46,037 nt of DNA from Deltaproteobacteria bacterium (GTDB lineage Bacteria > Myxococcota_A > Polyangia > Polyangiales > Houyiibacteriaceae), in assembly GCA_013151775.1 (NCBI GenBank), contig JAADHO010000204.1, forward strand, positions 8,580 through 54,616. Direction: 5' to 3'. Below are positions 1,648 to 15,564 of this stretch, in pieces. Both the position numbers and the translations under genes were made by a program. The notes beneath the pieces were generated by a model that saw only the letters and a list, made by a program, of their open reading frames with translations, ran no database searches and was not told the DNA's origin. Every line of letters begins with the position of its first letter. Position 1 is the first letter of the stretch.

Positions 1648-1717
1648 GCGGGCAGGATGCCACGGAGAGCTCTCTCGACCCAAATGCCTGCACGCCACGA
1701 GACCTTCGATCCGGACG

Positions 1718-3097
1718 CTAGGCCGCGACCTCTCGGCGTGGGAGCTCGAGCACGAAGCGAGCGCCGGCGTCGGTGCGCTCGACGTAGAGTCGCCCCGCGT
1801 GGCGCTGCGTGACGATGTTGTGGGCGATGGCCAAGCCCTGACCGGAGCCGCAGCCCACCTCTCGGGTGGTGAAGAAGGGATCGAAGATGCGGTCCTCGAT
1901 GGCCTCGTCCACTCCGGGTCCGCTGTCTTCGACGACGACTCGGACGACATGCTCGTGGCAGGAGGTGCTCACCAGGATGCGACCCTTGCGCTCCGGCTCT
2001 GGGCCCACGACCTCGGTGATGGCTTGGGCGGCGTTGACGATCAGCACGAGGATGGCCTGGTTCAGCTCCGCCGCGACCGCCATCACCATCGCGTTGGGCG
2101 CCAGATCGAGCTCGAGCTCCGCGACCCCTTTGTAGCTGCCTCGCGCCACGATCGCCGTGCTCGACACGCAGGCGCTGAGATCCGTCATCGCCTTGCTGCT
2201 CTGGCCTGGATGGGCGAACTCCTTCATGGCGCGCACCAGACCACCGACGCGTTCGATGCCCTCGACCGCCTGAGTCAAAGAGGCCGGCAGCTCGCGCTCG
2301 AGATAGTCGAGCTTCAGCTTGCGACGCAGCTTCGCCAGCTCCTTGTCGGCCTGTGGACCGCCGATCTCGCGATGCGCGTGCAGCATCTCGATCAAGCGCG
2401 AGACGCCCTGTCGCGCGAAGCTGAGATTGTCGGCGACGAACTGGGCGGGGGTGTTGATCTCGTGGGCGATGCCCGACGCCAGCCTGCCCACCGCCTCGAG
2501 CTTCTGGGCCCGCAGCAGCTCCGTCTGTGCGCACTCGCGCGCGGCGCGCTCCGCCCGCAGCTCTTGATTCGCCTGCTCCAGCTCCAGCACGCGCTCCGCG
2601 AGCTTCGCGTCGAGGCAAGCGAGCTTGACCTGCGCGGCTCGCCGGAGCGTCCACTTATGCGTCAGCGAACGCGCACAGGCTCGCAGTTCGGCGGCCTCCA
2701 GCGGCTTCTTCAGCACCAGGAAGCGCTCACGGGGCGGCATCTTGACGTCCGCCGTCGCGGCGTCCGTGAGGTGCGCGGCCGTGACCATCACGACCTCGAG
2801 GTTGGGATCGAGTTCCAGCATCCGGGCGGCGCCCTCGAGGCCGTCCATGGGTCCCGGGAAGCACTGGTCCACGAAGGCCAAGGCGAAGGGGCGCCCTGCC
2901 TCGAGGGCCTCGCGCAGTGCCTCGATGCCCGCCTCGGGGCTCGCCTGACAGCATAGCTCGAAGGGCCCGCCCGCCAGATCGGCATCGACCAGAGGCCGCA
3001 TGGTGCGCTGGTAGGCGCGCAACACAGACGGCTCGTCATCGATCACGAGCACGCGACGGTTGTTGGGCAGAGTCGATGTGGCGCAGGGCGTAACCAT
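1718..3097 (-). CDS. Response regulator receiver - sensor histidine kinase (N-terminal REC, C-terminal HisKA/HATPase)
   Basis: Start at MVTPCATSTLPNNRRVLVIDDEPSVLRAYQR; REC motifs VIDDE, FVDQ, LKKP; LASGIAHEINTPAQFV H-box; N/G boxes LNQAILVLIVNAAQAI, DSGPG, GSGQGLAIAHNIV. Confidence 0.88.
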   Translation of the reverse strand: MVTPCATSTLPNNRRVLVIDDEPSVLRAYQRTMRPLVDADLAGGPFELCCQASPEAGIEALREALEAGRPFALAFVDQCFPGPMDGLEGAARMLELDPNLEVVMVTAAHLTDAATADVKMPPRERFLVLKKPLEAAELRACARSLTHKWTLRRAAQVKLACLDAKLAERVLELEQANQELRAERAARECAQTELLRAQKLEAVGRLASGIAHEINTPAQFVADNLSFARQGVSRLIEMLHAHREIGGPQADKELAKLRRKLKLDYLERELPASLTQAVEGIERVGGLVRAMKEFAHPGQSSKAMTDLSACVSSTAIVARGSYKGVAELELDLAPNAMVMAVAAELNQAILVLIVNAAQAITEVVGPEPERKGRILVSTSCHEHVVRVVVEDSGPGVDEAIEDRIFDPFFTTREVGCGSGQGLAIAHNIVTQRHAGRLYVERTDAGARFVLELPRREVAA

Positions 3098-3149
3098 GTC
3101 CTCTCCAGAGGTACATTCTCCCCATCGGCTGGATCCCGTCCGCACTTGA

Positions 3150-3160
3150 GGGGGGGGGGG
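3150..3160. repeat. Poly-G homopolymer, 11 G, in the divergent intergenic region
   Basis: Direct read cacttga ggggggggggg tcgc; phase confirmed by the overlapping ORF translation MRGGGSLLQ. Confidence 0.9.
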
Positions 3161-3287
3161 TCGCTTCTCCAGGTGTCGCTCCTGCTGATATCGTCCCCTG
3201 GACGCAAGCGACTCGCGCCTTCGCTGGTGCCCGACGTGAACGCAAATTCTGCCAGCGCGCTGGCATTGCCATCTCGGAGGTTGGACC

Positions 3288-6047
3288 ATGATCGCTCGTA
3301 TGGACTCGAGGGCTCCTCATGCAGGAGCATTCGTCTGGATCTCGACCCTTCTCGTGACCCTGTCGGCGGCGCTGACGTCGGGCGCGTCGGCACAAGGCCT
3401 GCCGCCCTACATCACCGACAACGGGCTCGAGGGAAACGCGCGAGTCGCTGCGGGATACCTCGACGCCACGCTCTACGATGGCGCGGGAGGCAACGCCGTA
3501 GACCCCACGGGAGTCCTGGATTCGACGGCCGGTATTCAGGCCGCGCTCGACGACGCCTACCTCTACGGCATGGTCACCTACCTGCCAGCAGGCACCTATC
3601 TGGTCTCCGACACTCTGGTGAGGTCACAAGAGGGCGCAGACGTGGTCGCGTGCGCCGAGGCCGTGAGGGATTGGGGCACTGGGTACTATGCACGGCGCGC
3701 ACCGAGCCTAGTCGGACCCGAGGAGGGACCGCGTGCCGTCTTGAAGCTGATGGATTCATCGCCAGGATTCGACGACGATGGCAACCCCAAGCCCATCGTC
3801 TATTTCTACAACGACAAAGGCTCCGGATGGGACGGAGGACCGACCTGCGGATTCGGGTTCGTCGCGCGGAATCTCGAAATCGTCATCGGTAGTGGAAACT
3901 CGGGAGCCATCGGATTGCAGGTTCCGAGCGCTCAATATAGCACCATCGAAAACATCAAGATTGACGCAACGGGCGGTTACGCAGGTCTCCGGGGAGCGAA
4001 CTCGACCAATGTCGTAGTCAACCTAGATGTCACTGGCGGACGTTTCGGAGTAATCCATTCGGTTTGCTGTGGGCTCGCTTTCAGCGGCCTGCGACTGCGT
4101 GGACAGACCGAGGTCCCACTGGTACTCGACACCTATGGGGCCGTCGCCATCGTCGGATTCGATATCGAATCCGGAGGTGAGAGCGCAGTCCGGATGTTGA
4201 GTGGAGGATCGGGGCACACCAACCAAGTATCCTTGGTCGAAGGAGTCATTCGACACAGCGGTTCCGGCCCGGTCGTCGACAACGCTCTAGGCAAGACGCT
4301 CTACATGCGCAACGTGTACATCCAGAGTGACCGCACGCTCATTCAGAGCGGAAGTGAAACCGTAGATTCCACGAGTTTGAGTTGGCAACATATACGAGAA
4401 TACGCCTATGCGAACCGGCGCACATCCACGATGGATGGCGTAGACACGAAATCCTACACAATCATCGATGGAGTCATCAGCCAAGCGGGAGTAACTGACG
4501 TGGTCTCCTCGGATACTCCACCGCAGGATCTGGTTACTCGACATCTTCCAGGTTTGCTTCCGCACTTCGAGGGAGACGGCGTGCTCAACGTTCATGACAT
4601 GGGCGCGCTGGGCGATGGCACGACAGATGACCGCGCCGCCATTCAAGCAGCTATCGAGGCGTCTTCCGACGTGTTTCTTCCTCGAGGCGACTATATGATC
4701 AGCGGACCGATCATTCTGCACGCCAACACACGCATCTTCGGATCTCCTGGGATGAGAACGCGGTTGCGGCCGCACGATTCATGGCCACTGAGCACCGAGT
4801 ACGAACACCTCGTCCAGACCGACGACGACCCGAACGCGCGCACCGTCCTGCGCGATCTCGCGATCCACGCTCCAGGCGAGCCAACCGACGATTTTCGGCG
4901 AACCTACGTCGGCGCGGTCGACTGGCGCGCGGGCCGTCACTCCATCGTGAGCCAGCTGGAGATCAACTTGCCTCGAACTCCCCGTGGGTCCGACCGGAGC
5001 AGCGCCGATCGACGCCTGACTTGGATCCGCGGCTCAGGCGGTGGCCGCTGGTACGGGCTCGCCGCGCATATCTCCGCCTCGCGGCGCACGCGCGGAGACG
5101 ACTTCCGTTTGGTGATGGTCGACGGCACTCGAGAGCCTCTGACGTTCTACGGCCCGAACACCGAGAAGGCGGCTCAGAATCCGCACACCACAATTCTAGG
5201 TGCGTCCAACGTGCGAGTCTTTGGGATAAAGCGCGAGGGCAGTTTTTCGCTCTTCCGTGTGGAGAACTCGAGCAACATATTCCTCGCGTCGCTCACGGCG
5301 GCGAGGCTGAACCGACCCTTCGTCGACCTGTCGAACTCGACACAGGTGCTGCTCTCAGCGGTCGCCCTCTGGCCGGCGTTCGCGAGCACGCGGGTGGGCG
5401 GACGCAGCGTGACCGAATCGGCTCCCGATGGAAGTGAAGAGTGGGTCGACGGACCAGACAACGTAGCGCTCTTCCATCGCGGTCTGTTCGACGACAGCGC
5501 CTTCCCCTACTGCGGCGACGGAGTCTGCGATCCGAACAACGAGACCGCGAGCTGCTCCGTGGACTGCTCCGTGGACGTCAACGCCGCACCGACCGTCGAC
5601 GCCGGCGCAGACCTCTCGGTGACTCTGGGAGACGGCGCCTCGCTGACCGGCACGGCGGCGGATGACGGGCTGCCTGCGGATCCCGGCGCGCTCAGCCTGA
5701 CGTGGGCGCAGGTCGACGGACCGGGCACGGCAGCGTTCAGCTCGCCCACGAGCGCGGCGACGCTCGTGTCCTTCGATGCCGTCGGCGTCTACACGCTCTC
5801 ACTCAGCGCCAGCGATGGCGAGCTGTCCGCGAGCGACGAGCTGCAGGTGAGCGTGGTCGACGGGGGGCGTGGACCCAGCCCGCCGCCACCGACGAGCTGC
5901 GACGGCGGCCCCTGTGGCCCCTCAGCCTCCACATCGGGCTGCGGGTGCAGTCTGGCCGGAGCGGAGCGCCCAGGCGCCCTGCCCGTGCTGATGGTCGCCC
6001 TCGTGCTGCTGTTCGTGATTCGGCGTCGCGTGGCCATCGAGGCCTGA
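3288..6047 (+). CDS. Secreted right-handed beta-helix / pectate-lyase-superfamily protein with PKD/Ig-like domain and MYXO-CTERM-like tail
   Basis: Signal peptide; two blocks resembling pectate lyase superfamily segments (DSTAGIQAALDDAYLYGMVTYLPAGTYLVSDTL; DMGALGDGTTDDRAAIQAAIEASSDVFLPRGDYMISGPIIL); APTVDAGADLSVTLGDGASLTG; tail GCGCSLAGAERPGALPVLMVALVLLFVIRRR. Confidence 0.85.
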   Translation: MIARMDSRAPHAGAFVWISTLLVTLSAALTSGASAQGLPPYITDNGLEGNARVAAGYLDATLYDGAGGNAVDPTGVLDSTAGIQAALDDAYLYGMVTYLPAGTYLVSDTLVRSQEGADVVACAEAVRDWGTGYYARRAPSLVGPEEGPRAVLKLMDSSPGFDDDGNPKPIVYFYNDKGSGWDGGPTCGFGFVARNLEIVIGSGNSGAIGLQVPSAQYSTIENIKIDATGGYAGLRGANSTNVVVNLDVTGGRFGVIHSVCCGLAFSGLRLRGQTEVPLVLDTYGAVAIVGFDIESGGESAVRMLSGGSGHTNQVSLVEGVIRHSGSGPVVDNALGKTLYMRNVYIQSDRTLIQSGSETVDSTSLSWQHIREYAYANRRTSTMDGVDTKSYTIIDGVISQAGVTDVVSSDTPPQDLVTRHLPGLLPHFEGDGVLNVHDMGALGDGTTDDRAAIQAAIEASSDVFLPRGDYMISGPIILHANTRIFGSPGMRTRLRPHDSWPLSTEYEHLVQTDDDPNARTVLRDLAIHAPGEPTDDFRRTYVGAVDWRAGRHSIVSQLEINLPRTPRGSDRSSADRRLTWIRGSGGGRWYGLAAHISASRRTRGDDFRLVMVDGTREPLTFYGPNTEKAAQNPHTTILGASNVRVFGIKREGSFSLFRVENSSNIFLASLTAARLNRPFVDLSNSTQVLLSAVALWPAFASTRVGGRSVTESAPDGSEEWVDGPDNVALFHRGLFDDSAFPYCGDGVCDPNNETASCSVDCSVDVNAAPTVDAGADLSVTLGDGASLTGTAADDGLPADPGALSLTWAQVDGPGTAAFSSPTSAATLVSFDAVGVYTLSLSASDGELSASDELQVSVVDGGRGPSPPPPTSCDGGPCGPSASTSGCGCSLAGAERPGALPVLMVALVLLFVIRRRVAIEA

Positions 6048-6060
6048 CTCGGAGCCGTCG

Positions 6061-6136
<76 letters not shown>

Positions 6137-6183
6137 GAGCCGTTGCGAGACTTAGCCGCCTGACCTCGGAGCGTCAAGCGAAG

Positions 6184-9015
6184 TCAGTCGTCGCTGAGCA
6201 GGTCGTCGAAGGCCCGGTCGAGCTCGTCGTCGCTCGCCGTCGGTGCGACCGGCTCGGGGGGCGCGGGATCCGTCAGCCTGCGGATCGTCTTCTGCACACC
6301 GCGAAACTCGGGGTCGCGCTTCTGCACTTTGTGGAAGTAGTAGAGCGCCTCTTGCGGATCCTCGAGACCCTCGTAGGCGAGGCCGAGTTCGAAGTAGAGC
6401 CCCAGCTCCTCGTTGGGCGTCTTGGCCTCGGCGTAGAGGCCCTTCTTGAAGTGGCTGATGCCGTCGGGGATGCGCCCCACCTCGACGTAGCACATGCCGA
6501 TCATGGTGTGGGAGATGCACTCGCGCGCCGGGTTATGCATCGCCAATTCGAACTCGTGGACCGCCTCGTCCACGAGGCCCATCTCCTTGTAGGCGATGCC
6601 CAGATCGAAGTGAGTGTCCGTGTCCTCGAGACCTACCTGTTGCTCCACTCCCTTGCGGAACTGATCGATCACGACCTCGAGGGCGACCTCCTCGGAGCCC
6701 GTGGCGAGCGGCTCACCCTCGTCCACCAACTCCTCCGCGAGCTTCTCGGCCAAGGCGAAGCTCTCATCCAGAGCAGGCGGCAGTACGCTGGCGAGGGCCG
6801 ACTCCTGAGCGGCCTCGGTGATCTCCTGCAGCTTGTCCACCAGCACCGGATGCCCCGGGTGGGACGACAGCATATCCTCGAGAATGTCCCGCGCCTCGTC
6901 CCACAGCGCCTGGGCCATGAAGAACTCGATCTCCTCTAGCGTCTCTTCGATTTCTCCCGGGGGAAGCGACGCTCGCTCCACGGCGGCGGCCTCGGCGGCG
7001 GCCAATTCGTCGTGGCTGGGCCCAGCCGCGGGCGGCGGTGCGGGCACCTGGAACAGCTCGTCGGGCAGCGCCTCGGTGACCGTGCTCGACTCCACGTCGT
7101 CGAAGGGAGACTCCGCCAGCGCCTCCGGAAGCATGGCCTCAGGCGGAGGCATGGCCTCACGCGCAGGCTCTTGGGGCACCGCGACCTCGGAGGTCGGTGG
7201 CCCGTCTTCGAACACCAAGTCCTCGACGGCGGGCGCGGCGGTCATCATGGTCGCTGGCGAGTCCGCCTCGTCGTCCTCGATGAAGAGCAGCGCCTCCTCT
7301 TCCTCTTCCTCGGCGGGGACCTCGACTACGGCGTCGACGCCGGACCCGAGCTCGGGGCGCGACATCAGGGTGGCGTCGGGCGACTCGGCGGCGGCGAGCA
7401 GCTCGGGACCGCCGATCACCGTGGAGTCGTCGAAGTCCGTGTCGGGCGCCGCGTCGGTCGCTGGGGGGTGGATCGCGTCGGCGTGGGGACGCTCGGAGCG
7501 CATGGACTGGACGCGGGGGTCGTCTGGCGCGAGCTTGCGCAGCTCCGTGAGGTGGATCTGGGCGAGCTGCGGCTTCTCTTCCTGGAAGAGATCGATCAGC
7601 ACGTGCAGCTGCAGGACGGCGTCGCTGATGCGGCCGGCGTCGAGGTAGGCGTCCTTCAGGCGTTCGCGGCCTTCGACGTTGTCCGGCGCGATGCGCGCCA
7701 CCTCCTCGAGCTGCCCGATCACCTTCTCCTTCAGCCCGTAGCGCGCGAAGACGTCGCACTCCGTCAGCAAGCGCGCCACGTTCGCCTCGTGGGCGACGTC
7801 GTCCGGGATCGAGGACCGGGACGCGGCGGGAGGAGGCGCTGGCTCCGACGCGATGGACACGTCGATCATCGGCTCCTCATCGACGATCAGGATCTCTTCA
7901 TCGTCGTCGTCGTCGACGATCAAGACCTGATCTTCGTCTCCATCCTCATCGAGGATCATGACCTCGCCGTCGTCGTCGAGCAGCTCCACGTCGTCGTCGA
8001 GCAGCTCCACGTCGTCGTCGTAGAGTTCGGGTTCGGGCGCGGCGCGGGCCGAGGAGCCCACCACGGCCCCGGGGGGCATCCCCATGCGCTGCGAGAGCTC
8101 ACGCGCGGACGGCGCGGGGGCGTACCTCGCGAGGGCCTGCAGCGCCTCCGCGTCGCCCGGATCCAGCTCGAGGATACGCTTCAGATACAGGGCGCGCTCC
8201 TCCGGGCGCTTGCCTTCGCCATAGATGCGCGCGATCTCCCGATAGACGCTGACGGTCTTCGGCGTCTGGCCCAACAGGCGAAACGCTTGGGCCAAGAGCT
8301 CCAACGTGCGTACGTCCTTGGAGTTGGCCTTGAAGGCCAGCTGCAGCTTGGCCAGCGCCCGCTTGGCGTCGTTGCGCTCGAGGTAGACGCTGGCGAGCTT
8401 GCGGGCGAGCTCCAGATCCGTCGGCCGGTGGTAGAGCAGGCGCTCGCTGACCTTCAGGTAGTCCTCGATGCGGCCCTGCTGCTCGAGCAGCGCGGCGCCG
8501 GCTGCGAACTCCTCCGCGGCGTCCTGCGTGCGGCCCGCCTTGGACAGGGCCTCGGCGTACTTGATGCGCACGGGGATGTTGTCGGCGTCGAGCTTCGCCA
8601 TGCGCCCGAGGGTGTCGAGGGCGCGCTCGACGTTGCCGGCCCGCGCGAAGGCCTGCGCGACCTGCTCGTAGGTGCTCAGCGCGTCGCTGACGAGCTGCAG
8701 CTCCTCGTACATCTGCCCGAGCCTCAAGGAGACCTCGATGCGGCCGGGTTCGAGCTTCAGGACCTGCTTGCACACGGCCACGGCCTTGAGAAAGAACCCC
8801 TGCCCGGCGTAGTGCTCGGCGACCTGTTCGTAGGTCCGCACGGCCTCGCGCCGGGCACCCTTACGCGTGTAGATGTCGCCGATCTTCAGCAGCGTGCGCA
8901 CGTCGTGCGGGTCGTCGTCGACCAGCTTGCGGTACTCGGCGATCGCCCGCTCGAAGTTGCCCTTCGCGAGATGCTTCTGCGCAACTTCGATGACTTTTGC
9001 GCGGTTCAGCGCCAC
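6184..9015 (-). CDS. Large tetratricopeptide-repeat protein with acidic low-complexity linker
   Basis: MALNRAKVIEVAQKHLAKGNFERAIAEYRKLVDDDPHDVRTLLKIGDIYTRKG... multiple TPR units; acidic DDDVELLDDDVELLDDDGEV segment; C-terminal TPRs. Confidence 0.88.
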   Translation of the reverse strand: MALNRAKVIEVAQKHLAKGNFERAIAEYRKLVDDDPHDVRTLLKIGDIYTRKGARREAVRTYEQVAEHYAGQGFFLKAVAVCKQVLKLEPGRIEVSLRLGQMYEELQLVSDALSTYEQVAQAFARAGNVERALDTLGRMAKLDADNIPVRIKYAEALSKAGRTQDAAEEFAAGAALLEQQGRIEDYLKVSERLLYHRPTDLELARKLASVYLERNDAKRALAKLQLAFKANSKDVRTLELLAQAFRLLGQTPKTVSVYREIARIYGEGKRPEERALYLKRILELDPGDAEALQALARYAPAPSARELSQRMGMPPGAVVGSSARAAPEPELYDDDVELLDDDVELLDDDGEVMILDEDGDEDQVLIVDDDDDEEILIVDEEPMIDVSIASEPAPPPAASRSSIPDDVAHEANVARLLTECDVFARYGLKEKVIGQLEEVARIAPDNVEGRERLKDAYLDAGRISDAVLQLHVLIDLFQEEKPQLAQIHLTELRKLAPDDPRVQSMRSERPHADAIHPPATDAAPDTDFDDSTVIGGPELLAAAESPDATLMSRPELGSGVDAVVEVPAEEEEEEALLFIEDDEADSPATMMTAAPAVEDLVFEDGPPTSEVAVPQEPAREAMPPPEAMLPEALAESPFDDVESSTVTEALPDELFQVPAPPPAAGPSHDELAAAEAAAVERASLPPGEIEETLEEIEFFMAQALWDEARDILEDMLSSHPGHPVLVDKLQEITEAAQESALASVLPPALDESFALAEKLAEELVDEGEPLATGSEEVALEVVIDQFRKGVEQQVGLEDTDTHFDLGIAYKEMGLVDEAVHEFELAMHNPARECISHTMIGMCYVEVGRIPDGISHFKKGLYAEAKTPNEELGLYFELGLAYEGLEDPQEALYYFHKVQKRDPEFRGVQKTIRRLTDPAPPEPVAPTASDDELDRAFDDLLSDD

Positions 9016-9201
9016 GATTCGACCCGACTACCAAGACCTGGACAGCTTGAAAAACCAGCCGCCGAAAGCCGCTCTGGCCGCGGAATTATTCCGAATTCTG
9101 AGAGCCCCATGGAAGCGCTGCGAGTGTATGCGTCGGCCCCGCGGGGGTCAACCGCCGCGCGCGGGTCGCACAGGGCGATCGGAGCGCGATCCGGCTGCGC
9201 T

Positions 9202-10557
9202 TCAGCCGCCACTCGAGGACGCTTCGGCGGCCATTCGCTCGAGCAGGCGCGTCGAGTAGCGCCCCGAGCGGAATTCCGCATTGTCGAGGATCCGCCGATG
9301 CAGCGGGACGTTGGTGCGAATGCCGGTGAAGATCGTCTCGTCCAACGCGCGACGCATGCGCGCGATGGCCTCGTCGCGGTTGCGCCCGTGGGCGATCACC
9401 TTGGCCAAGAGCGAGTCGTAGGCGGCGGGGACGCGGAAGCCTCCGTAGACGCCGCTGTCGACGCGGATGCCCGCACCACCGGGTGGGTGATACTCGAGGA
9501 TCGGGCCGGGCCAGGGCGCGAAGGTGTCTGGATCCTCCGCGTTGATGCGACACTCGATGGCGTGCCCGCGCGGCGTGACGGGTCCCTCGGGGAAGGTGAT
9601 CTCCTCGCCCGCGGCGATGCGAATCTGCTCGGCCACCAGGTCGAGGCCCATCACCATCTCGGTGACCGGGTGCTCGACCTGAATCCGCGTGTTCATCTCC
9701 ATGAAGGAGAGGCCGCCGCTCTCGTCCATCAGAAATTCCACCGTGCCCGCCGACACATAACCCGTGTCCGCCATGGCGCGCATGAGCGTGCTCGTCATGT
9801 CGGCGCGCAGCTCGGGATCGAGGCCGCAGGAGGGAGCCTCCTCGAGCACCTTCTGGTGGCGCCGCTGCACCGAGCACTCGCGCTCTCCGAGCACGCGCAC
9901 TCCACCGCGACCGTCAGCCAGGATCTGGAACTCGATGTGTCGCGGCTCCTCGACGAAGCGCTCGAGGTAGAGATCGCCGTTCTTGAAGCCCGCCTGAGCC
10001 TCGGCCTGCGCCTGGGGAAACACCACGCGCAGCCGCTCGGCGTCGCGGATCACGTGCATGCCGCGGCCGCCACCGCCACCCGACGCCTTGAGCATGAGCG
10101 GGAAGCCGATGCGCTCGGCCTGACGCACGGCGTCGTCCACGTCGGCCAGCACGGCGCTGCCCTCGGAGAGCGGGAGCCCGAGTCGCTTGGCCAGCGCACG
10201 CGCCTGCACCTTGTCGCCCCATTGGCGCATATCCTCGGGACGCGGTCCGATGAAGGTGAGCCCGCAGCGCGCACAGATCTCCGCGAAGTCGGCGTTCTCG
10301 GACAGGAAGCCGTAGCCGGGGTGCAGCGCGTCGGCACCGCTGATCTCGGCGGCCGCGATGATCGCAGGCACGTTGAGGTAGCTGCGCGCGGCCTCCGCCG
10401 GACCAATGCACACGGCCTCGTCGGCGAAGCGCACATGCAGCGCGTCGTCGTCCACGTCGCTGTGCACGGCGACGGTGGCGATGCCCATCTCTCGACAGGC
10501 CCGGATCACGCGCAGAGCGATCTCCCCGCGGTTGGCGATGAGGACTTTCTGGAACAC
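9202..10557 (-). CDS. accC: Acetyl-CoA carboxylase, biotin carboxylase subunit
   Basis: GTG start VFQKVLIANRGEIALRVIRACREMG; ATP-grasp KASGGGGGRGM; EMNTRIQVEHPVTE. Starts 2 nt after the accB stop. Confidence 0.95.
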   Translation of the reverse strand: MFQKVLIANRGEIALRVIRACREMGIATVAVHSDVDDDALHVRFADEAVCIGPAEAARSYLNVPAIIAAAEISGADALHPGYGFLSENADFAEICARCGLTFIGPRPEDMRQWGDKVQARALAKRLGLPLSEGSAVLADVDDAVRQAERIGFPLMLKASGGGGGRGMHVIRDAERLRVVFPQAQAEAQAGFKNGDLYLERFVEEPRHIEFQILADGRGGVRVLGERECSVQRRHQKVLEEAPSCGLDPELRADMTSTLMRAMADTGYVSAGTVEFLMDESGGLSFMEMNTRIQVEHPVTEMVMGLDLVAEQIRIAAGEEITFPEGPVTPRGHAIECRINAEDPDTFAPWPGPILEYHPPGGAGIRVDSGVYGGFRVPAAYDSLLAKVIAHGRNRDEAIARMRRALDETIFTGIRTNVPLHRRILDNAEFRSGRYSTRLLERMAAEASSSGG

Positions 10558-10559
10558 GG

Positions 10560-11000
10560 TCAGCGCGGCGCGATGCGGAAGAGGCGGGCCCCGAATTCCA
10601 CGGGCTGACCGTTCTCGATCAAGACCTCGAGGATCTGGCAGGCCTGCTCGGCCTCGATCTCGTTCATCAGCTTCATGGCCTCCACGATGCACAGCGTCTG
10701 GCCCGGGGTGACCTCCGCGCCCGCGGAGACGAAGGCCGGCAATTCGGGCGAGGGCGCGCTGTAGAAGGTGCCCACGAAGGGAGAGGTGATGAAGTCTCCC
10801 TCATCCTCGGACGCGGCGTCCTGCGCGGGCGGTGGATTCGGCGTGGCGCTCGGTGCGGACACCGCGGCGGCGGGCGCGACGTGCCCGCGCTCGAGCACCA
10901 AGCGTTCTTCTTCGTCCTCGAGCTCGACGCGTGTGACGTCGAACTCACCCATGGCCTGCATGAGCTCTCGGAGGCGTTCGAGATCGATCTCCATCGGCAT
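10560..11000 (-). CDS. accB: Acetyl-CoA carboxylase biotin carboxyl carrier protein
   Basis: N-terminal IDLERLRELMQAMGEFDVTRVELE; Ala/Pro linker; biotinylation motif VEAMKLMNEIEAE. Confidence 0.95.
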   Translation of the reverse strand: MPMEIDLERLRELMQAMGEFDVTRVELEDEEERLVLERGHVAPAAAVSAPSATPNPPPAQDAASEDEGDFITSPFVGTFYSAPSPELPAFVSAGAEVTPGQTLCIVEAMKLMNEIEAEQACQILEVLIENGQPVEFGARLFRIAPR

Positions 11001-11030
11001 CTCCTGTGTGGGACTCGCTCGGCGAAGGGC

Positions 11031-11510
11031 CTAGCGGCGCTGTGCGAGATAGTCCATGAGCGCCCTCAAGCCAAGCACATAGCTGCCGGGACCGAAGCCG
11101 CTGATGCTGCCGAGGCAAACGGCGGCGAGCATGGAGTGGCGACGAAACTCCTCGCGCGCGTGCACGTTGCTGAGGTGCACCTCCACTACGGGCACGCCGA
11201 TGGCCGCGATGGCGTCACGCAGGGCGATGGACGTGTGGGTGTAGGCCGCCGCGTTGAGCACCACTCCGTCGGCTCCTTCCTGGGCCTCGTGCAGCCAGTC
11301 CACGAGCTGTCCCTCGTGGTTGCTCTGGCGGACGTCGAGCTCCACGCCCAGCTCGGAGGCGTGGCCCTCGAGCGCGGCGTTCAGCTCCGGCAGCGTGGCG
11401 GAACCGTAGGTGTCGGGCTCTCGCTGGCCCAAGAGATCGAGGTTGGGACCGTGCAGCACCATCAGGCGGATCCGGCCCTCGGGGCCGTGCACCGTCGACG
11501 GATCGGGCAT
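11031..11510 (-). CDS. aroQ: Type II 3-dehydroquinate dehydratase
   Basis: MVLHGPNLDLLGQREPDTYGSATL; QSNHEGQLVDWLHEA; LNAAAYTHTSIALRDAI; EVHLSNVHAREEFRRHS. Confidence 0.95.
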   Translation of the reverse strand: MPDPSTVHGPEGRIRLMVLHGPNLDLLGQREPDTYGSATLPELNAALEGHASELGVELDVRQSNHEGQLVDWLHEAQEGADGVVLNAAAYTHTSIALRDAIAAIGVPVVEVHLSNVHAREEFRRHSMLAAVCLGSISGFGPGSYVLGLRALMDYLAQRR

Positions 11511-11872
11511 CAGCTCAGCTCTTCGACCAGGCGCCCACCCCGCGTGCGAAGCATGTAGCGCGCCTTGCCCACGTTGGCGCCGGGGACGAGGGTCATGGCG
11601 ATGAAGTACTCGTCCGTGAGGTAGCGAACCACGGTGGTCAGCTGCTCGGCCTTGATCGACACCTCGAGCGCGGCGCCGACCTCGAGCATTTCGACCGCCT
11701 TTCGAACACCCGAGAGGATGACGCTGTACTCCATGCCGACGGTCTGGACGTCGATCGAGCTGTCGCTGCGCACGTATTGATCGACCGCGATGCCGTCGTA
11801 GCCCATCAAGAGCCCGGCGACACCGCCCTCGGTTCCGTCTACGACTTCCTTCAGGACTTGCTTGAACATCAT
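11510..11872 (-). CDS. Roadblock/LC7 (MglB-like) domain protein
   Basis: MMFKQVLKEVVDGTEGGVAGLLMGYDGIAVDQYV... one compact roadblock-like domain; stop overlaps aroQ start. Confidence 0.75.
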   Translation of the reverse strand: MMFKQVLKEVVDGTEGGVAGLLMGYDGIAVDQYVRSDSSIDVQTVGMEYSVILSGVRKAVEMLEVGAALEVSIKAEQLTTVVRYLTDEYFIAMTLVPGANVGKARYMLRTRGGRLVEELS

Positions 11873-11913
11873 GGCCTCCAGAGGCTGATCTGCGCACGCA
11901 TCATGGGTGCCCG

Positions 11914-12051
11914 TCAAGCTTCGTGCGGCGGCCGGGGCGAGCGCTCGGGCGCGGCGCGGCTGCGCTCTGGGCCTCGGTGGTCGAGGCTCTGGGCCAGGCG
12001 GATGAAGAGCAGGCCGCTCAGGAAGAAGAGACCGAAGGCGAGAGAATGCAT
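11914..12051 (-). CDS. Small predicted membrane protein (hypothetical)
   Basis: From internal ATG: MHSLAFGLFFLSGLLFIRLAQSLDHRGPERSRAAPERSPRPPHEA, one hydrophobic helix. A start at 12102 would overlap the terminator hairpin. Confidence 0.35.
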   Translation of the reverse strand: MHSLAFGLFFLSGLLFIRLAQSLDHRGPERSRAAPERSPRPPHEA

Positions 12052-12070
12052 GGTGAATCCAGCGGGCAGC

Positions 12071-12106
12071 AACAAAGAGAGGGTGTCCGCAAGCGCGAAC
12101 ACCCTC
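12071..12106 (-). terminator. Rho-independent terminator downstream of the tRNA-Leu-like gene
   Basis: Minus strand GAGGGTGTTCGC-GCTT-GCGGACACCCTC (12-bp stem with one G-T pair) followed by TCTTTGTT. Confidence 0.75.
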
Positions 12107-12110
12107 TGGG

Positions 12111-12190
12111 TGGGGACGAGAGGACTCGAACCTCCACGGGTTTTACCCCACTAGATCCTTAGTCTAGCGCGTCTGCCAGTTCCGCTCCCC
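12111..12190 (-). tRNA. Leu-type tRNA-like gene, anticodon AAG; acceptor/D-arm junction looks about 4 nt short (possible pseudo-tRNA)
   Basis: Minus strand GGGGAGCGGAACTGGCAGACGCGCTAGACTAAGGATCTAGTGGGGTAAAACCCGTGGAGGTTCGAGTCCTCTCGTCCCCA: anticodon stem CTAGA/TCTAG, loop CTAAGGA, long variable arm, T-arm present; GGGGA pairs with TCCCC but positions 6-9 look missing. Confidence 0.65.
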
Positions 12191-12234
12191 GGGCAGTTTT
12201 TCGAGCGCCGACGCTAGCTCGCCCCCCACGGTTG

Positions 12235-13266
12235 TCAAGCGGAGCGACGCCCGGCCATGGCGCCGCTCTGCTTCAGGAACTGGGCCGTGCGCGCGATGCC
12301 CTCGCGCAGATCGACCGCGGGCGTCCATCCGAGGTCGCGCTCGGCCGCCTCGATGCGAAAATAGTGGTGGGTGCACATGTAGCGAATGGCGAAGCGGGAC
12401 AGCCCCGTGTCGGCGCCGAGCGTGTCGCCACGCAGACCCTTGAACGCCTCGGCGACGGCGGCCGCCCCGTAGGCCACGGCGTAGGGCACTCGCCCGCGTA
12501 TGGGCGGCAAGTCGAGGGCCTCGAGCATGCGCCCGACGAAATCCCAGAAGGCCATGGGCTCGCCGTTGGTGATGAAGTAGGGCTTGCCCGCGCAGGCCGC
12601 TCCGGGCTCGACTCGACGCAGCGCCGCGAGGCAGGCGTCGACCAGGTTCTCGACGTAGGTGAAGTCGCTGAGCTTGTTCTCGCGGCCCACGCCATAGCGC
12701 AGACGGCCCGCGTTTGCGCGCTCGAGGATGGCGGGCAGGAAGCGCCCGTCGTGGGGCCCGAAGATCACGTGGGGACGCAGCGCCACGCTGGCGAGGTCGT
12801 CGTCACTCGCGGCGAGCACGTCCTGCTCCGCGGCGATCTTGCTCTCGGCGTAGGGCGCCTGGGGGATCCGGCAGTAGGGCAGGGACTCGTCCCCCGCCTC
12901 GATGTCCTCGCCTTGATAGACGACGCTGCCGCTCGAGACGTAGACGAAGCGCGGCACATGCTGGGCGCGACAGGCGCGCAGCATATGCGCCGTGCCGCCG
13001 TGGTTGATCGCCCACACGTCGGCGACGCACGTGTCGCGTGTGTGCACCATGGAGGCGTTGTGGATCACGCCGTCGGCGCCCTCGAGCAGACGCGTGACGG
13101 CCTCGAGATCGCGGATGTCCACGCGCTCGTAGCGCACGTCCTGGCGGTGAATTCGCGGCGTGATGTCCGAGGCGACCACGTCGTAGTCGGCCTGAACCAG
13201 GGCGTCGACCAGGTGCCGGCCGACGAAGCCGGCGGCCCCCGTGACCACGACGCTCTGCTTGCTCAT
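12235..13266 (-). CDS. NAD-dependent epimerase/dehydratase (extended SDR, 3-beta-HSD-like)
   Basis: MSKQSVVVTGAAGFVGRHLVDALVQADYDVVASD; GxxGxxG; VYVSSGSVVY...YAESKIAAE; ITNGEPMAFWDF. Confidence 0.9.
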   Translation of the reverse strand: MSKQSVVVTGAAGFVGRHLVDALVQADYDVVASDITPRIHRQDVRYERVDIRDLEAVTRLLEGADGVIHNASMVHTRDTCVADVWAINHGGTAHMLRACRAQHVPRFVYVSSGSVVYQGEDIEAGDESLPYCRIPQAPYAESKIAAEQDVLAASDDDLASVALRPHVIFGPHDGRFLPAILERANAGRLRYGVGRENKLSDFTYVENLVDACLAALRRVEPGAACAGKPYFITNGEPMAFWDFVGRMLEALDLPPIRGRVPYAVAYGAAAVAEAFKGLRGDTLGADTGLSRFAIRYMCTHHYFRIEAAERDLGWTPAVDLREGIARTAQFLKQSGAMAGRRSA

Positions 13267-14528
13267 GGGGCCGCGTATCGCACGGAAAAGGCGAGCCAGC
13301 CAGCACGCACGGCGTAGCGCCCGGCACAACCGACCTTCACGCGCTCGCCCAGCAGGCAGCGCCCATCCACCGCCGGCACCTCCTGCGAGCCGAAGGAATA
13401 ACTCACCGCGAAGTCGAGCTCAAAGTCGGCCACGGAGATACCGAAACCCGCGTAGAAGGCCTGCAAGAGGCCCGGTGGCGGCATGAAGCTCTGCATGGCT
13501 CGAGCGCGCGAGGCGCTGGTGGAGAGGTTGTAGCCGATGCGCAGAGGCACATCCCCTGCCATCCACTCGGCGCCGATGCGCCCGGAGTAGACGTTCTTCC
13601 ACTCCAGCGGCACGACGATGCGCTCGTCCGCGACTCGCAGCACCTGCTCGCGATTGGCCTCGCGATGAAACTGCACCCTCAGCTCCGCGGTCGTGAGCAG
13701 CCGGTCGGACAAGGCGTGATAGGCCACGCCGAAGCCCAGCGCATGGGGCACGGACCAGGAGGTGCGCGTGGGCGACTGCAACGGGACGTCTCCATCCGAG
13801 AGCGTCAGCGACGTCTGCCCGCGCATCTGGATCACCACCTTGGAGCGGTAGGTCAGAGCCAGCGCCAGGTTCGGGGTCGGCCGGTAGGTGGCGCCCACGA
13901 GCACGCCGGGGAGACCGAACCCCGAGACGCTCTGCTGCACGGGCACCCAGGCGTCAGGGTAGATCTCCTGGGTCACGCTGGCGGCCTGACGTCCGTAGGG
14001 CAGGCGCAGGCTGAAGCCCAGATCGAGCTTGTCGGACATCCGGTACGCTACGGGCAAGGAGAGTTCGCCGATGAAGAGCAGTGCGGACTGATCTTGGGGC
14101 GATGCGAGATCGTAGCCCGCGATCCGCGTGACGTTGGCGAAGCGACCGCCGTAGCCGGTGTTGAGGTAGGCGCCGAAGCCCACCACGAGGCGATCGCTGA
14201 AGCGCCTCGCGGCTCCCACCAACACCAGAGGCGCCAAGGACAGGCCCGTGTGGCTGGTGGTTCCGTCACCGCGCACGGGCGCCGCCAAGTCCACGCCGAT
14301 CAGCGTGGCGGAGACGCTGGCCTCGAAGCGCTTGATCCCGACGAGATTCGCCGGGTTGTGGAAGAGCGCCGCCGGGCTGTCGAGGAAGGCGAGCCCAGTG
14401 CCGCCCATGCCCACGGCGCGGGCGTCGAAGGCGGGCGCCTCTGGGTTCGCGCGCGCGACAGCCGGCCAGTGGACCAGCGACAGCGCGAGCAGTCCCAGGG
14501 CGAGACGCTTGGAGTGACGGAAATTCAC
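13263..14528 (-). CDS. FadL/OMPP1/TodX-family outer membrane transport protein
   Basis: Signal peptide then NPEAPAFDARAVGMGGTGLAFLDSPAALFHNPANLVGIKRFEASVSATLI; beta-barrel pattern; GTG start inferred; stop overlaps next ATG. Confidence 0.8.
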   Translation of the reverse strand: MNFRHSKRLALGLLALSLVHWPAVARANPEAPAFDARAVGMGGTGLAFLDSPAALFHNPANLVGIKRFEASVSATLIGVDLAAPVRGDGTTSHTGLSLAPLVLVGAARRFSDRLVVGFGAYLNTGYGGRFANVTRIAGYDLASPQDQSALLFIGELSLPVAYRMSDKLDLGFSLRLPYGRQAASVTQEIYPDAWVPVQQSVSGFGLPGVLVGATYRPTPNLALALTYRSKVVIQMRGQTSLTLSDGDVPLQSPTRTSWSVPHALGFGVAYHALSDRLLTTAELRVQFHREANREQVLRVADERIVVPLEWKNVYSGRIGAEWMAGDVPLRIGYNLSTSASRARAMQSFMPPPGLLQAFYAGFGISVADFELDFAVSYSFGSQEVPAVDGRCLLGERVKVGCAGRYAVRAGWLAFSVRYAAP

Positions 14529-14616: not shown

Positions 14617-15564
14617 ATGACCCTCCCTCAGACCGAGAGCGCCAACTCGGATGCGGACGCGAGCGCGACCCAGGCGAGCTGGCAGACGCGCGTGCGCAGC
14701 GCCGAGACCCACTCCCTCGACGGCACGCGCATCTACTACGAGACCGTGGGCGACGGCCCCGAGACCTTGCTCCTGGCCAACGGCCTCGGCGGTCGCCTGC
14801 ACGCCTGGGCGCCGCTGCTCGAGGCGCTACACGAGCGCTATCGGCTCTTGACCTGGGACTACCGCGGGCTCTTCGAGTCGGACTCTCCCCCGAGCCACCG
14901 CAGCCTGGCGATCACGCGTCACGTGGAGGACGCCGTGGCCATCCTCGACGCCGAGGGCGTGGAGCGCGCCGTGCTCTGCGGCTGGAGCATGGGCGTGCAG
15001 GTCTCCCTCGACGTGGCGGCCATGCACCCCTCGCGGGTGCGCGGCCTGGTGCTGCTGAACGGCACCTACGGCCACGTCTTCAGCACGGGTTTCCAGCCCT
15101 TCTTCACCGTCCCGGGCATCCCCAAGCTGCTGCACCTCGCCGTGCAGCGGCTGCGGGACGAGCCACGCACGCCCAAGGTGCTGCGGGCCCTCGCGCGCTT
15201 CAGCGAGCCCCTGACCTTGCTCGCCTTCGGGCTCACGGCGGGCCGCCGCAGCTTCTCCCTCGCGCCGACTCTGCGCCAGTACAACGAGGACGTGCTGGGC
15301 GAGAGCTTCGACCACTTCATGCACCTGTTTCAGGAGCTGGACGCGCACAGCGTCTACCACGTGCTGCCCGAGATCACGGCGCCTGCGCTGATCGTCAGCG
15401 GCGCCCTCGATCTGCTCACGCCCGCACGCCAATCGCGCGAGATGGCCAAACGCCTGCCCCACGCCCAACGCCTGGCGCTCTTGCGCGCGAGTCACTTCGC
15501 GCTGCTCGAGCGGCCGGAGACGGTGGTGCCCGCCGTCGAGCGCTTCCTGCGCGAGCTGGACTGA
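14617..15564 (+). CDS. Alpha/beta hydrolase
   Basis: IYYETVGDGPETLLLANGLGGRLHAWAPLLEAL; nucleophile elbow GWSMG; PALIVSGALDLLTP; ASHFALLERPE. Confidence 0.9.
   Translation: MTLPQTESANSDADASATQASWQTRVRSAETHSLDGTRIYYETVGDGPETLLLANGLGGRLHAWAPLLEALHERYRLLTWDYRGLFESDSPPSHRSLAITRHVEDAVAILDAEGVERAVLCGWSMGVQVSLDVAAMHPSRVRGLVLLNGTYGHVFSTGFQPFFTVPGIPKLLHLAVQRLRDEPRTPKVLRALARFSEPLTLLAFGLTAGRRSFSLAPTLRQYNEDVLGESFDHFMHLFQELDAHSVYHVLPEITAPALIVSGALDLLTPARQSREMAKRLPHAQRLALLRASHFALLERPETVVPAVERFLRELD

Follow-up and report, generated by a model that had tools for sequence, protein, structure and literature searches.

A tRNA-Leu gene with anticodon AAG is found on the minus strand of the window, the whole stretch of 46,037 nucleotides analysed here, and positions 6–9 of the tRNA are absent from it in the assembly (Table 1). 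The anticodon and the gap are best considered separately. From comparison across genomes, the AAG anticodon is an inherited and conserved trait of the lineage, with a cause separate from that of the 4-nt gap, and the gap is probably an assembly or consensus error in an otherwise normal tRNA-Leu(AAG) housekeeping gene. A sequence-only reading of the window had counted the AAG anticodon as part of the oddity of the gene, which does not hold: tRNA-Leu(AAG) is carried by 37 of 58 relatives in a pattern search, GAG by 10, and both by none. The spread of the AAG anticodon in Myxococcota matters more than the gap itself.

As assembled, the minus strand reads GGGGA-GCGGAACTGGCAGACGCGCTAGACTAAGGATCTAGTGGGGTAAAACCCGTGGAGGTTCGAGTCCTCTCGTCCCCA from 12190 to 12111, and the sequence across the gap, with positions 6–9 absent, is GGGGAGCGG. 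The Rfam model RF00005 spans the gene end to end with model positions 6–9 deleted, and its score of 33.8 bits (gathering cut-off, 29) is the lowest in the genome; of the 43 matches to a tRNA, the one ranked just above it reaches 52 bits. ARAGORN does not call the gene, and its sole call in the window is tRNA-Gly(CCC). The Rfam match and an alignment with 17 relatives show a class II tRNA with a leucine-type D arm and a long variable arm, and tRNA-Leu genes of relatives match the interval with E values down to 2e-42. The 7-bp acceptor stem and the connector nucleotides 8–9 are what the assembled gene fails to provide; it is classed as tRNA-Leu(AAG) by orthology despite the absent positions 6–9. 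The anticodon AAG given in the earlier reading is confirmed by the sequence itself, by the alignment and by the ARAGORN call on the homologue in G001, a genome of the same genus (MAG Myxococcales bacterium CG_2015-01_69_45).

Table 1. Features of the tRNA-Leu(AAG) locus in window coordinates.
Feature	Position	Strand	Basis or remark
tRNA-Leu(AAG) gene without nucleotides 6–9	12111..12190	minus	RF00005 match and comparison with G001
Anticodon arm CTAGA-CTAAGGA-TCTAG, anticodon AAG	12151..12167	minus	sequence; ARAGORN reports aag for the G001 homologue
Intrinsic terminator hairpin, 13 pairs, directly 3′ of the gene	12078..12107	minus	stem kept in G001, loop differs
TTGACA, probable −35 element	12233..12238	minus	same spacing in G001; alignment read by eye
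TAGCGT, possible weak −10 element	12211..12216	minus	16 nt after the −35 element; TACTTT in G001

The strong terminator hairpin noticed earlier directly after the gene is indeed present, and the terminator search found this one hairpin against 0.3 expected. A consensus promoter scan flagged no promoter upstream of the gene; the promoter-like elements in Table 1 come from the comparison with G001.

The G001 copy, which is called by ARAGORN, reads GGGGA-TGTG-GCGG, with positions 6–9 filled, and comparison with it sets the gap in the window copy between GGGGA and GCGG, at 12186/12185. An automatic MAFFT alignment sets the gap after G1; the GGGGA-[TGTG]-GCGG placement, which is free of mismatches, is preferred. 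Thus the claimed absence of about 4 nt is upheld both by the Rfam deletion and by the TGTG missing relative to G001. The CGTG that had been proposed as the missing sequence does not agree with G001, although it is present in other relatives such as G004 and G053. From position 10 to the discriminator, the window gene and the G001 gene are identical at 75 of 75 nt, and they share the same terminator stem and the same TTGACA element, while the DNA around the gene aligns at only about 73%. The chance of no change in 82 unconstrained sites at 73–80% identity is about 1e-8 to 1e-11. Nearly all other copies in relatives are likewise called tRNA-Leu(AAG) by ARAGORN. All relatives examined across the gap (G001 and about 25 further, spread over the order) have a 7-bp acceptor stem and nucleotides 8–9, and the missing 4 nt are therefore private to this assembly. 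Furthermore, covariation of the cloverleaf is seen across 18 aligned copies, 16 of them distinct, in which seven pairs are changed on both sides, indicating that the cloverleaf is under selection. These include the acceptor pairs 2–71 and 6–67 (alignment columns 2/82 and 6/78), the latter occurring as AU, UG, and CG.

The gene is the only recognisable tRNA for CUU and CUC in the assembly. The tRNA-Leu inventory of the genome, made with Rfam and with ARAGORN on stretches, consists of CAA, CAG, TAA, and TAG in addition to the one match of the AAG kind. tRNA-Leu(GAG), whose absence had been suspected, was not found in this assembly, whose tRNA set is incomplete: tRNA-Phe(GAA), tRNA-Gly(GCC), and tRNA-Arg(CCG) are also lacking, and all three are present in G002, a genome of the same family that is 100% complete. 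tRNA-Leu(GAG) was not found in G002 either, where AAG is the sole reader of CUU and CUC among 47 tRNA genes. Taken with the mutual exclusion of AAG and GAG in the 58 relatives, AAG appears to replace GAG as the CUU/CUC reader in both genomes. Of the 1394 leucine codons in genes of the window, 586 are CTC (42%) and 40 are CTT, and CUC would be poorly served by U34 reading alone. With such heavy use of CUC and no GAG gene found, the tRNA-Leu(AAG) gene should be essential, and a cell without it could hardly translate.

It is on this expected essentiality, on the otherwise perfect conservation of the gene, and on its being intact at this place in every relative examined that the preferred explanation is based. 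The gene would be a single-copy housekeeping tRNA-Leu(AAG) gene; positions 6–9 would be present in the molecule of the cell, the gap being an error of the draft; and TadA would convert A34 to inosine, so that the tRNA reads CUU and CUC. The error is thus deduced from expected lethality, and two findings count against it. No frameshift is found in the coding genes of the window compared with G001, so that indel errors are infrequent here, and three other tRNAs are absent from the draft, so that an intact Leu copy left unassembled is conceivable. Such a copy would be needed if the 4 nt had really been deleted in the recent past, with CUU and CUC being read by it or, poorly, by tRNA-Leu(UAG). The gaps of the draft and the existence of two AAG copies in G032 and of a second copy reduced to its 5′ half in G013 and G002 lend this course of events some credit, but nearly all matching relatives are single-copy, as is the genome itself by its matches, and CUC, frequent as it is, would be served poorly by U34 alone; a recent deletion is therefore rather unlikely.

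The best fit is an error in the assembly (or a lesion of very recent date); the other two origins offered in the earlier reading, a decaying pseudo-tRNA and a non-canonical tRNA, fare worse. A working short tRNA would stack an acceptor stem of 5 bp on a T stem of equal length, leave two nucleotides unpaired on the 3′ side and do without the connector nucleotides 8–9. It would be consistent with the Rfam score still above the family cut-off and with the conservation of the promoter-like sequence, the terminator and all of the remaining sequence. U8 belongs to the core of the L-shape of tRNA. Unusual bacterial tRNAs do exist: allo-tRNAs and other non-canonical tRNAs likewise depart from the 7/5 rule for acceptor and T stems, with reviewed configurations of 8/4, 9/3, and 8/5 (PMC7609411). 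Those, however, form families of their own with a branch of 12–13 bp, whereas the assembled gene is a one-off 5/5 with a 2-nt bulge, 10 bp in all instead of the 12 bp of the 8/4 or 9/3 allo-type, and none of the bacterial exceptions in that review matches a functional 5/5 tRNA that lacks nucleotides 8–9. The short form is shared by no relative, including that of the same genus, where the tRNA is canonical, and folding of the shortened sequence shows no preference for a cloverleaf, a calculation that is equally uninformative for the intact G001 copy and does not separate the two forms. A working short tRNA is thus very improbable, and still a little less credit can be given to the fuller proposal that the 80-nt product is transcribed and, with only 5 bp in its acceptor stem and the D arm following without a connector, serves as a functional leucine tRNA and sole reader of CUU and CUC in the cell; if true, a bacterial tRNA would here be truncated to an extreme degree. 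Least probable of all is an old pseudogene in decay. The missing acceptor and connector nucleotides and the lack of an ARAGORN call are what such a gene would show, but there is no other difference from the intact G001 gene over 75 nt between flanks of about 73% identity, the terminator is intact and the promoter-like sequence is kept, and no substitute reader of CUU and CUC was found in the assembly; conservation excludes long-term decay. The gap thus serves as a warning: where an essential tRNA looks broken in a draft genome, an error in the sequence is a likelier cause than biology.

The distribution of the AAG anticodon is wide. According to a paper from 2026, almost all bacterial tRNA-Leu(AAG) genes in the genomic tRNA database belong to Bacilli (PMC13249217). 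In our phylum-wide sample, AAG is found in at least 10 families (f1, f2, f3, f18, f21, f39, f43, f47, f68, and f69) and other families carry GAG. The present genomes show that tRNA-Leu(AAG) extends beyond Bacilli and is widespread in G+C-rich Myxococcota. Isoacceptor identities did not discriminate between an origin of the AAG gene from GAG and one from CAG, and a literature search for inosine and tRNA-Leu in Myxococcota found no papers.

Inosine at position 34 is expected in this tRNA, since its anticodon loop is nearly identical to that of tRNA-Arg(ACG) (CUAAGGA and CUACGGA, differing solely at position 35) and fits the YUAMGRA motif, and a TadA gene is present. The TadA gene, the search for which had been proposed earlier, is located at G000:C112:15816-16268 (174 bits, above the curated cut-off), with tRNA-Arg(ACG) at 15010-15083 of the same contig stretch. 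YUAMGRA is the TadA motif reported for Streptococcus pyogenes (PMC11472039), and inosine adds CUC to the CUU that is read by unedited A34 (PMC13249217). tRNA-Leu(AAG) of S. pyogenes was not edited by Escherichia coli TadA in the same study (PMC11472039), and an adaptation on the enzyme side is thus possible. Comparison of 26 TadA proteins from AAG and GAG genomes gave no clean signature; three positions discriminate loosely and are confounded by descent.

The closest known parallel is tRNA-Leu(AAG/IAG) of Lactobacillales and Oenococcus. There too, A34 replaces GAG in whole clades, AAG and GAG are almost never found together (PMC13249217, PMC11472039), and the anticodon loop conforms to the motif recognised by TadA (PMC11472039). 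The present lineage belongs to another phylum and is G+C-rich with CUC dominant, whereas those genomes are A+T-rich; the loop differs from that of tRNA-Arg only at position 35, whereas positions 35 and 37 differ in S. pyogenes; and here editing is predicted from sequence and the window copy is without positions 6–9 in the assembly. Myxococcota therefore offer a second bacterial setting for testing how the substrate range of TadA became wider, and whether codon use is reshaped by I34 on a leucine tRNA where CUC, not CUU, dominates.

Some minor observations concern individual genomes and the surroundings of the gene. AAG-bearing genomes in the phylum sample include G063, G066, G309, G325, G345, and G439, and G435 apparently has both AAG and GAG, which are mostly mutually exclusive elsewhere in the sample. 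Six family members (G010, G014, G021, G024, G026, and G031) have neither by the pattern used, reflecting incomplete assemblies or divergent genes. The half copy in G002 and G013 precedes the intact gene by 159 bp (L012 and L017, about 1333–1370). A break in synteny with L084, at 12256–12262 of the window, precedes the tRNA gene by about 60 bp, and the regions 6061–12256 and 12262–14180 are arranged differently in G001. The region 1666–6060 (about 4.4 kb), which adjoins tRNA-Gly(CCC) and contains an ORF of 919 aa at 3288–6047, has a counterpart of only about 565 bp in G001, through insertion here or loss there.
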